This document shows positions 61 to 45,948 of a stretch of DNA of 46,159 nt, piece after piece; positions within the stretch are counted from its first letter, which is position 1; every line of letters begins with the position of its first letter. Origin of the DNA: Acidobacteriota bacterium (GTDB taxonomy: Bacteria > Acidobacteriota > Vicinamibacteria > Vicinamibacterales > JAKQTR01); NCBI GenBank assembly GCA_026393675.1, contig JAPKZQ010000041.1:1-46159 (forward strand), written 5' to 3'. The notes beneath the pieces were generated by a model. The model was not told the origin of the DNA. It searched no databases and was given only the letters and a program-made list of their open reading frames with translations. A program made the position numbers and the translations under genes.

Positions 61-144
61 ACCTAACCTTCAAATGGAGCCGACGCGCCGGGCGGTCCGT
101 GACATCATGTCGCCGTGGCGCGCGGCTCATTTGAAACGTTAGCC
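61..144 (+). other. integron attC site (site A)
   Basis: Imperfect palindrome of 84 bp. The left box ACCTAAC (61-67) fits RYYYAAC. The right box GTTAGCC (138-144) is close to GTTRRRY. The inner arms TCAAATGGAGCC and GGCTCATTTGA pair completely except for one extra G, the extrahelical base typical of attC sites. The site at 45312-45395 shares these arms. No integrase gene is visible nearby. It ends the cassette lying to the left of the window and starts the toxin-antitoxin cassette. Confidence 0.85.
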
Positions 145-3447: not shown

Positions 3448-3522
3448 GCCTAACACCCGCATGTACCCGACGGCCACCGGAGCTGGCGCACCGCGGCCGC
3501 GGGTGATGCGGAGACGTTACGC
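3448..3522 (+). other. integron attC site (site E)
   Basis: A perfect left box GCCTAAC (3448-3454) and a right box GTTACGC (3516-3522) flank arms CCGCATGTACCCG and CGGGTGATGCGG, which pair with one extra base. The geometry is good for attC. Confidence 0.8.
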
Positions 3523-3564: not shown

Positions 3565-4347
3565 ATGCAGTACAAACCAGGCGACAAACTCTTAAGCACT
3601 GAGCAAATCATCCAGCGTGTGATTGGGCAAGGACCGCACGCATGTGTGGTGATCACCGAGGATCACCAGATCCGTTGGGAATTCCAACCTCGTGACAGTG
3701 AAACGCCGTCACACCTTCGTCCCGCTATCGCTGCTCTAACCGAACTATCCTCCCTCGGGCGTTTGGTCCTGAGGGCGGATAACCGCGACGGCGTACGTGG
3801 TGACTTGGCCGAAGCTCTCTGGGTATCCTTCGAGACCCCTGACGGGGAAGACGTCCTGCCGGCTTTCAGGCCAGTTCGTAAAAGGCTTGAAGCCCGGTGG
3901 CGGCGTCTCACGACTGCTGCCTATTTAGGAGGCGCAGTTCTCGTCCTCGTTCCATCTCTGATTCCACTCGGCTACGTTCTCCTGACGAGTAATCAGTCGA
4001 TACTCATAGCGTCCGCGGCTCTCGCGGGTGGTGCCGCCGGTGCGCTTCTCAGCGTCATGGAACGGACTCGCCGACTTGAAGTGGATGAGTGGTCCCCGTT
4101 TTGGTATTGGGCTCTAGAGGGTGCCCTCCGCGTATTGCTCGGCACGCTTTCTGGCGTCATTATGATGACACTCGTCAATCTGGACCTGTTTTTCGGATTT
4201 GCCAAGGGACGAACGGAAGGTGTCTTTTTAGCCGGAGTCATCGCTGGCTTTGCTGAGCGGCTCGTTCCAACACTCCTCATTCGCCTGACCCGATCGCCCG
4301 AAACAGGCGGGAAAAGAACCGGCGGGAATAGAGGTCCCGGAGCCTAA
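3565..4347 (+). CDS. unrecognised four-helix membrane protein in a cassette
   Basis: A 260-residue protein from ATG 3565, preceded by a good AGGGAGG ribosome binding site. Residues about 1-110 form a soluble domain that begins MQYKPGDKLLSTEQIIQRVI. Four hydrophobic segments follow at roughly 113-138, 148-168, 180-212 and 218-245. The last contains AGFAERLVPTLL, a pattern I associate with membrane-anchoring halves of several hypothetical proteins. No catalytic motif is visible. The TAA stop lies inside the GCCTAAC left box of the next attC-like site, so the gene fills its cassette to the end. Function unknown; a membrane-anchored sensor or defence component is possible but unproven. Confidence 0.75.
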   Translation: MQYKPGDKLLSTEQIIQRVIGQGPHACVVITEDHQIRWEFQPRDSETPSHLRPAIAALTELSSLGRLVLRADNRDGVRGDLAEALWVSFETPDGEDVLPAFRPVRKRLEARWRRLTTAAYLGGAVLVLVPSLIPLGYVLLTSNQSILIASAALAGGAAGALLSVMERTRRLEVDEWSPFWYWALEGALRVLLGTLSGVIMMTLVNLDLFFGFAKGRTEGVFLAGVIAGFAERLVPTLLIRLTRSPETGGKRTGGNRGPGA

Positions 4348-43237: not shown

Positions 43238-43981
43238 ATGACGCCACGCTTCTACGCACCCGCGCTTCGGTCCGAGAGCGGCGCCGTCGAGCTTCCAGCC
43301 GAGGAAGCCGAACACCTCACGCGCGTGCTCCGTCTCGGCGTGGGCGCGACCGTGCGTGTGTTCGACGGCCGGGGACTCGAGTGTCAGGCGCGGGTCGTGC
43401 ACGCCACCCGCCGCGACGTACGACTCGAGGTCGGCGCCCGGGTGGATGCCGCTGCGGAACCACGCGTGCGTGTGACGCTTGCGCAGGCCGTCGTCAAGGG
43501 CGACAAGATGGACGGCATCATCAGGGACGCCGTCATGCTGGGCGTGGCGGCCATCCACCCATTACTGACGGCGCGAACCGATGTGCCGGAATCGGCGTTC
43601 GCAACCGGCACACGCGTCGAGCGCTGGCGGCGCATCGTCATCTCGTCAGTCAAGCAGTGCGGGCGTGCGGTCGTACCGGATCTGGCGGCACCCGAGAGCC
43701 TGGAGGCGTGCCTGCGGCGGGGCCACGACGGGCTGCGCCTGATGTTGGTGGAGCCGGGAATCTTGGCCGAGGTGACGACGGGGGAGGAGCTGCGCGGCCT
43801 GAGCCCGACGGATTCGGCGCAAGTGTTCGTCGGGCCTGAGGGCGGCTGGACGCCCGCGGAGGTGTCGATGGCACAGGAGGCGGGCTGCCGTCTGGTCACG
43901 CTGGGCAAGCGAACTCTCAGGGCCGATGCGACGCCCCTCATCGCGCTTGGCGTGCTGCAGTATCTGTGGGGCGATTTGTAG
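43238..43981 (+). CDS. rsmE: 16S rRNA m3U1498 methyltransferase RsmE
   Basis: 247 residues of the SPOUT knot fold. FYAPALRSESGAVELPAEEA opens it, ISSVKQCGRAVVPDLAAPES, VFVGPEGGWTPAEVSMAQEA and LGKRTLRADATPLIALGVLQ are RsmE motifs for SAM binding. It methylates U1498 in the 30S decoding region. It has its own promoter opposite the kinase gene; 500 bp of non-coding DNA follows. Confidence 0.94.
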   Translation: MTPRFYAPALRSESGAVELPAEEAEHLTRVLRLGVGATVRVFDGRGLECQARVVHATRRDVRLEVGARVDAAAEPRVRVTLAQAVVKGDKMDGIIRDAVMLGVAAIHPLLTARTDVPESAFATGTRVERWRRIVISSVKQCGRAVVPDLAAPESLEACLRRGHDGLRLMLVEPGILAEVTTGEELRGLSPTDSAQVFVGPEGGWTPAEVSMAQEAGCRLVTLGKRTLRADATPLIALGVLQYLWGDL

Positions 43982-44355
43982 GGCACAGCGCTCAGTCGCC
44001 TGCCGGCGCGCATCGGTCTTGCCCATCCACCCTGTCCGTGAGGTATGGGTATCGAAGGCCGAGTCGGCAGATTCTGCGGTTGGCAGATTCTGCGTACTCT
44101 TGCGTCGGTGACGATATACAATCCGGCCGCGCCTCGTCGTGCCCCCGCCGTGCCCGTTCGAACGGTCCGTATCCCATTACGCTTGGGACGGTTGCAGCGT
44201 ATGCCCCTGACGTCGCCACTTGCCTGCTTGCGACAAGTGGCCGTCGGGGAAGGAGTTACCGCGTGCAGCCAACAACGGTGCGTAAGACATTACGCTGCGA
44301 ACCGCTGCAGCGTATAAGGAGAGAGCGGCGGCGGAGCGCCGCAGGCTGATTATCC
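43982..44355. other. non-coding region with several short inverted and direct repeats
   Basis: No supported gene. It holds a direct repeat GGCAGATTCTGCG (twice near 44070-44095), an inverted repeat GCCACTTG (44215-44222) with CAAGTGGC (44234-44241), a second, TTACGCTGC with GCAGCGTA near 44290-44310, and GCAGCGTAT twice. It may be decayed recombination sites at the edge of the right-hand attC cluster. Confidence 0.5.
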
Positions 44356-44362
44356 GTTAGCC
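44270..44362 (+). other. possible degenerate attC site before the DUF4386 cassette
   Basis: A good right-end box GTTAGCC (44356-44362) matches that of site A, and CTGCAGCG pairs with CGCCGCAG, but no convincing left box is found. If real, it bounds the DUF4386 cassette on the left. Confidence 0.25.
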
Positions 44363-44567: not shown

Positions 44568-45248
44568 ATGACTCGCAGGACGAACGCAAGAATCGCCGGA
44601 GTCACGTTCCTGGTTTACATCGCGGCCACCATCACGAGCATGGTCCTGTTCTCCCGGGCGACCAGCGGAGAAGGGGTTGCCGCGCAACTCGCAGGCATCG
44701 CCCAGCATGCGACAGACGTGCGTCTCACCATCGTGCTCGGCCTACTTGGGAACTTCTGCGCCCTGGTGCTCGCCGTGACACTTTACGCGATAACGCGAGA
44801 GCAGGATCCCGATCTGGCAATGCTGGCCCTGGCCTGTCGCGTCGCCGAAGGCATCGCCGGCATGGACGTGTCGAAGACGCTCGGCCTTCTCTGGCTCGCG
44901 ACGGCAACCGACGCTACCGCACTTGACGCGGGGGCAGCATCCGCGCTCGGCGCATTCTTCCTGAAGATGGAAGCGTCGTTTACCGCAAGCGCAGCCTTCT
45001 TCGCCCTGGGGAGCACGCTCTTCTCGTGGCTCCTCCTCCGCGGTCGCATGATCCCGGTCGCACTGGCCTGGCTCGGCGTGCTTGCGTCGATCCTGCCCGT
45101 CGTGTGCTTTCCTCTGCAGCTCGCGGGACTGCTCGGCGGCCCGGTCACGTCGTTCATGTGGTATCCAATAATGCTGTTCGAGGTGGCGCTGGCGCTGTGG
45201 CTGATCATCAAAGGCGTCGCCGCGCCGGCGCCGAGGCAACCGGCCTGA
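44568..45248 (+). CDS. DUF4386 family membrane protein
   Basis: 226 residues with six hydrophobic segments. The start NARIAGVTFLVYIAATITSM, then LLGNFCALVLAVTLYAITRE and LACRVAEGIAGMDVSKTLGL, then GSTLFSWLLLRGRMIPVALA, fit DUF4386, whose function is unknown. ATG 44568 is chosen because the family begins close to it; an upstream in-frame start (44484) adds unrelated sequence. The gene lies between a possible attC end and attC site H, so it is probably cassette cargo. Confidence 0.85.
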   Translation: MTRRTNARIAGVTFLVYIAATITSMVLFSRATSGEGVAAQLAGIAQHATDVRLTIVLGLLGNFCALVLAVTLYAITREQDPDLAMLALACRVAEGIAGMDVSKTLGLLWLATATDATALDAGAASALGAFFLKMEASFTASAAFFALGSTLFSWLLLRGRMIPVALAWLGVLASILPVVCFPLQLAGLLGGPVTSFMWYPIMLFEVALALWLIIKGVAAPAPRQPA

Positions 45249-45311: not shown

Positions 45312-45395
45312 GTCTAACACTCAAATGGAGCCGACGCGCCGGATCATCTGGACCATTGTGTTGCAGAGGCTCGCGGCTCATTTGAAACGTTGGGC
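45312..45395 (+). other. integron attC site (site H)
   Basis: The best attC here. GTCTAAC (45312-45318) and GTTGGGC (45389-45395) fit the consensus exactly. The arms TCAAATGGAGCC and GGCTCATTTGA pair with one extrahelical G. Arms and adjacent CGACGCGCCGG are shared with site A at 61-144; only the loop differs. Confidence 0.92.
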
Positions 45396-45409
45396 TTGAG
45401 GTGGAAGAA

Positions 45410-45886
45410 ATGAACACGAGAGTCATCACACACGCTTCGTTGCCCGGCCTGGTTGTCGTGGTCATACTGTTTGCCACCGCCGTGACCTCGATTGCAGCCA
45501 CCGAGAAGAGGATCCCGTACCATCCCGAGTTCATTCAACTCGTCCAGCAGGGCCGGATAGGCAGCGCGGAGATCATCACTGGACCATCCGGAATCAAGTA
45601 CATCCGGGCGAAACTCGTCAGAGCTGAAGGGAAGGAGGAGGAAACGCTTAGGGTGGATGCTATTCCAAACGACATCTCGAGCGATCAGGTGATCAACATG
45701 CTGATCGAGAAAGGTGTCCTGATAACTCAGAGGCAAGAATCATTGTCGCCCTTCAGCATGTTCACGATGTGGCTACCGCAGGTCGTGGGATTCGTGGTTT
45801 GGATCGTAGTCGTCATCATCGCCCTCTGGCTTGGTTTCAGGCTGGTGCGGGCCGTTGAGCGGATCGCAGAGAACACGAAGAAATAG
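45410..45886 (+). CDS. stand-alone FtsH periplasmic-domain-like membrane protein
   Basis: 158 residues. First helix about residues 10-30 (LPGLVVVVILFATAVTSIAA). Then a domain like the FtsH extracytoplasmic part: YHPEFIQLVQQGRIGSAEII, RVDAIPNDISSDQVINMLIE, KGVLITQRQESLSPF. A second helix (about 118-148, VVGFVVWIVVVIIALWLGF) precedes a short cytoplasmic tail ending in AENTKK. The layout equals the N-terminal region of FtsH, but the AAA+ and zinc-protease domains are absent and a normal stop follows. attC sites lie on both sides, so it is cassette cargo. It might join FtsH hexamers and change their activity, which is inference. Confidence 0.72.
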   Translation: MNTRVITHASLPGLVVVVILFATAVTSIAATEKRIPYHPEFIQLVQQGRIGSAEIITGPSGIKYIRAKLVRAEGKEEETLRVDAIPNDISSDQVINMLIEKGVLITQRQESLSPFSMFTMWLPQVVGFVVWIVVVIIALWLGFRLVRAVERIAENTKK

Positions 45887-45889
45887 GCC

Positions 45890-45948
45890 GTCCAACAACC
45901 GGCTGGAGCAGACGCGCTGGCGCGCGCTGCTCAGCCGTGCCGTTATGC
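45890..45948 (+). other. integron attC site (site I)
   Basis: A perfect left box GTCCAAC (45890-45896) lies just after the preceding stop codon. The arms CGGCTGGAGCAG and CTGCTCAGCCG pair with one extra G. The right box is GTTATGC (45942-45948). Compact, 59 bp. Confidence 0.82.

Follow-up and report, generated by a model that had tools for sequence, protein, structure and literature searches.

An integron cassette of an Acidobacteriota bacterium encodes a small membrane protein with an FtsH-type periplasmic domain and no ATPase or protease

The gene and its integron cassette

The DNA analysed (the window, 46,159 nt) is the entire contig C41 of an Acidobacteriota genome of 3.25 Mb in 46 contigs. 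Close to the right end of the window, an intact reading frame encodes a 158-aa protein composed of a transmembrane helix (TM1), a periplasmic domain of the FtsH_ext type, a second helix (TM2) and a short tail (Table 1). The gene is the only one in its cassette, and the cassette is the second in an array that consists of an attI-like leader, a DUF4386 gene, the FtsH_ext gene and an HTH_3 gene. The attC sites carry R''/R' cores and form a bottom-strand hairpin, as expected for integron cassettes. In the excised circle, the attC2 cores match the RYYYAAC/GTTRRRY consensus perfectly, and the z-score of attC2 folding against shuffled sequences is −6.6 in the circular form and −4.9 in the inserted form. 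These sites bear out the first-pass annotation, a reading of the bare sequence, in placing the gene in a cassette. A search against Rfam gave no match.

Table 1. Coordinates of the cassette and its neighbours in the window
Feature	Position	Strand	Basis and remarks
attI-like leader	44019..44358	+	91% identity with the sequence lying upstream of the intact integron integrase (contig C16)
First cassette, DUF4386 membrane protein	44571..45248	+	PF14329, E 7.2e-26
attC1, attC of the preceding cassette	45312..45395	+	Bottom-strand hairpin; relatives at window 63-140 and, elsewhere in the genome, on other contigs
Integron cassette, 553 nt, this gene only	45390..45942	+	Bounded by the G/TT recombination point in each attC site
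Shine-Dalgarno-like AGGTGG	45399..45404	+	5 nt upstream of the ATG of the 45410-45886 ORF
Gene of the small FtsH_ext membrane protein	45410..45886	+	ATG to TAG, 158 aa; intact ORF
TM1, FtsH_ext periplasmic domain, TM2, short basic tail	encoded by 45410..45886	+	Pfam, AlphaFold2, fold match, profile score
Periplasmic FtsH_ext domain, codons 32-118	45503..45763	+	Pfam residues 14-109; structural matches over model residues 32-118
attC2, attC of the FtsH_ext cassette	45890..45948	+	Cores in circular form GTCCAAC...GTTGGGC
Third cassette, HTH_3 (HigA-like) regulator, truncated at the contig end	45971..46159	-	PF01381

The attI-like leader in the window has no adjoining intI; integrases are located on contigs C16 and C46, and the closest relatives of the genome's integron integrase are found in Acidobacteria. 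The copy of the attI region in the window directly follows an RsmE-like gene (named by eye) within 43238-44358 and is one of two attI-like sites in the genome, the other being the copy beside the intact integrase. The second integrase (L014 1498-2235, contig C46) lacks its N-terminal part, comprises 245 aa and lies near an attC-like sequence. The left end of the contig (window 1-3560) is another cassette array, so that both contig ends break within arrays. Its attC sites lie near 63-143 (folded) and near 850-925, 2880-2945 and 3450-3520 (by eye). This array holds toxin-antitoxin cassettes, one with a PIN gene and its Phd-like partner (190-612, 609-842) and one with a CopG antitoxin (2561-2866) downstream of a BrnT-like ORF. 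In or beside it, two ORFs, one of 379 aa (987-2126) and one of 260 aa (3565-4347), have no Pfam match.

The FtsH_ext gene has a GC content of 0.549 and the window one of 0.644, a difference suggestive of a foreign origin. Its GC3 (0.73) is higher than its own overall GC, as in the adjacent genes.

A short ftsH-like frame may be what is left of a full-length gene after decay or truncation by the assembly. Such artefacts occur in the class: FtsH_ext is present in 182 of the 192 genomes, nearly all frames among the matches listed (all but the weakest) are long, and the short ones that were checked or placed among these matches all run off contig ends. However, the stop that the first-pass annotation called normal is a natural TAG three bases before attC2 and 273 nt inside the contig, and closing the cassette yields a perfect attC. 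Remnants of the AAA+ domain, named in advance as a sign of a decayed gene, are absent; the three forward frames after TM2 contain no FtsH-like sequence at all, and there is no room for it before attC2. The tail residues are also unlike the FtsH linker. The position of the stop and the lack of an FtsH-encoding frame beyond TM2 indicate that the gene did not decay in place. Thus, for the locus as it stands, a decayed full-length gene is refuted by the stop, the frames, the tail and attC2, and decay or truncation of any kind is hardly credible.

The FtsH_ext domain in sequence and in predicted fold

By Pfam search, residues 14-109 belong to the FtsH_ext family PF06480 with a score of 28.5 bits (E 1.9e-6), above the curated cut-off of 25.5 bits. 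The same search found no AAA and no M41 domain, in agreement with the first-pass annotation. The AAA+ ATPase domain of the FtsH protease family has neither a Pfam match nor coding space here, and the M41 zinc protease domain with its HExxH motif is missing from the protein. We also used an HMM from 35 FtsH N-termini from which the 158-aa protein was left out. The protein scored 43.3 bits and its reversed sequence 5.7 bits, while none of 1903 scored shuffles exceeded 12.0 bits; for the soluble part alone (31-118) the score was 21.7 bits compared to 6.4 bits for the best shuffle. The HMM alignment to the FtsH N-termini stops at residue 134, and tail residues 136-158 scored −1.8. Scored alone, TM2 and the tail did not rise above shuffles, and TM2 is therefore identified by its position and by the W-P motif that it shares with FtsH. 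The statement that the gene keeps "exactly" what FtsH has in the periplasm and membrane thus goes slightly too far: the domain and the TM1-domain-TM2 layout stand, but the last 23 residues are unlike FtsH.

The identity of the protein to FtsH is about 27–36%, and to the domain of the resident FtsH it is 27%. Residues 70-78 (VRAEGKEEE) form a longer acidic loop between strands 3 and 4, which by sequence alignments falls at position 61-64 of E. coli FtsH, where HflK makes contact.

The structure of the 158-aa protein was predicted by AlphaFold2 from the single sequence without an alignment (mean pLDDT 70.9). The model consists of a helix (11-29), a strand, a helix, three strands, a helix and a strand, and a long helix (114-157). 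The solved structures that best match it are chains of FtsH or FtsHi, and the top four Foldseek matches are chains from FtsHi motor complexes. In structural re-alignment, the N-domain of E. coli FtsH (4v0b) gave Z 9.4 and 1.4 Å over 63 of 63 residues, and Thermotoga FtsH (4m8a) gave Z 8.9. Thus the predicted model has the FtsH periplasmic fold that defines PF06480, between two hydrophobic helices as the first-pass annotation had read it, and the dissimilar structure that would have spoken against that reading was not obtained. Ribosomal proteins of a similar small fold reached Z 8.3, so the fold by itself is insufficient to settle descent. Sequence and predicted fold combined do settle it. A fold search of BFVD with the model gave no match at E <= 0.001. 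We infer that the protein goes back to an N-terminal module of FtsH that diverged long ago and had its C-terminal tail replaced, rather than to a recent truncation of the ftsH gene resident in this genome.

Search for short relatives

The first-pass annotation expected homologues that are always short and lie near attC sites. No short homologue was found in any collection searched. Protein searches covered about 1,000 genomes, namely 60 relatives, 193 genomes of the class and a sample of 396 of the phylum (these three sets overlap), as well as 50 integron-bearing genomes from several phyla and 398 from the order to which Xanthomonas belongs. All matches were full-length FtsH or unrelated long frames with an identity of 22–36%. 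Exact peptide patterns found no short relative in a collection of 84,980 genomes; since pattern scans detect close relatives only, distant short relatives may exist. There were also none in viral contigs, plasmids or phages, where the viral-contig scan found no FtsH N-termini either, and none in 62 integrase loci, which total 782 kb. As no other short relative turned up in the genomes, plasmids, phages and integrase loci searched, the 158-aa protein is a singleton. Most cassettes occur in metagenomes. This is usual for cassettes, about 80% of whose ORFs had no database match in one survey (PMC10963911).

Without relatives there is no conservation by which selection could be demonstrated. The gene may thus be non-functional or weakly selected and drift in the array, as its singleton status, with no relative outside its own genome, and its low GC content would allow. 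We consider this quite improbable, however, because the frame is intact, a ribosome site precedes it, the predicted product is foldable, and GC3 exceeds the overall GC as in the neighbours.

An action against phage, suggested by the first-pass annotation, gained no support: the protein matches none of the PADLOC models of known anti-phage defence proteins. The only hint in this direction is that the defence protein IetA has been described as having an FtsH_ext domain (PMC10924106). In the open-access literature we found no description of a natural stand-alone FtsH periplasmic module. The anatomy proposed for the protein, an FtsH_ext module in a cassette, is right and uncommon.

Possible action on host FtsH

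FtsH, a protease of wide conservation, governs the quality of membrane proteins, the synthesis of lipid A and lambda lysogeny. In this genome there is a single complete FtsH (644 aa, with HEAGH, contig C6), which is the only M41 match, and an hflK-hflC pair whose two genes lie side by side. Thus, partners for the 158-aa protein exist. A weak match on contig C3 proved to be YajC-like by sequence and was rejected.

E. coli FtsH without the cytosolic domain remains a hexamer through its periplasmic domain and TM helices (PMC13097134). In P. aeruginosa, the horizontally acquired FtsH2 forms hetero-oligomers with the core FtsH1 (PMC6629908). HflKC contacts FtsH via the periplasmic domain, at residues 61-64 (PMC12067869, PMC12048511). 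Given this hexamer, this co-assembly and this grip of HflKC, the 158-aa protein could become part of the FtsH complex and either reduce proteolysis or redirect it. Its periplasmic and membrane parts would assemble with host FtsH into mixed hexamers or enter the HflKC cage, and once there it would act on membrane-protein proteolysis as an engine-less regulatory pseudo-subunit. The first-pass annotation had proposed a decoy subunit that alters membrane proteolysis. Modulation of FtsH through such co-assembly is a plausible hypothesis. The FtsH_ext score above the cut-off, the scores far over shuffles, the fold match and the cassette boundaries tight around the ORF argue for it; the 27% identity to the resident domain, the longer acidic loop, a TM2 that is not significant alone and the lack of relatives count against it.

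The same divergence, the altered loop and the non-FtsH tail may instead mark an independent membrane protein, which would use the FtsH_ext fold for its own purpose (a self-assembled ring, an envelope-stress sensor or an adaptor) without binding FtsH. This is a real, if doubtful, possibility; membrane or exported proteins are frequent among cassette products (PMC10963911). However, the whole TM1-domain-TM2 layout is kept as in FtsH, including the W-P motif at TM2, and FtsH and its HflK-HflC partners are present in the genome. The protein could also bind the HflKC cage instead of FtsH and thereby release FtsH, since FtsH itself binds HflKC through a domain of this type (PMC12067869) and hflK-hflC are at hand. 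Such titration is improbable, because the E. coli contact loop is conserved neither in length nor in charge, which also speaks against a simple HflKC mimic.

The 158-aa protein resembles FtsH (FtsH_ext, AAA and M41) in the order and spacing of TM1, the periplasmic alpha+beta domain and TM2 and in the predicted fold (4v0b, 2muy, 4m8a), and differs from it in the absence of AAA+ and the M41 protease, its C-terminal tail and its longer acidic loop (70-78). FtsHi pseudo-proteases of the Ycf2/Orf2971-FtsHi motor (8xqw, 8xks) likewise combine an FtsH-type domain with the loss of protease function in one subunit, but they are organellar and retain the AAA+ domain. P. aeruginosa FtsH2 on the genomic island PACGI-1 (PMC6629908) is also an FtsH homologue gained by horizontal transfer, and it hetero-oligomerizes with the core FtsH of its host, but it is a full-length active protease. 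HflKC is non-catalytic and acts on FtsH, but contains no FtsH-derived module. SpoVM and lambda CIII are small non-catalytic proteins acting on FtsH; to our knowledge, neither is an FtsH-derived module.

A transferable protein that consists of the periplasmic and membrane module only would be a natural tool for finding what this module of FtsH does alone, and would give mobile elements a new route to influence proteolysis in the host. It is rather unlikely that this mobile engine-less subunit enters the host FtsH/HflKC assembly and reprogrammes membrane proteolysis, as a dominant regulator spread by horizontal transfer and acting on a protease that is conserved widely and often essential.

TM1 of the 158-aa protein ends in VTSIA-ATEK (window 45410-45500), a possible signal peptidase site of a type unexpected in FtsH; if it is cleaved, the protein would be left with one anchor.
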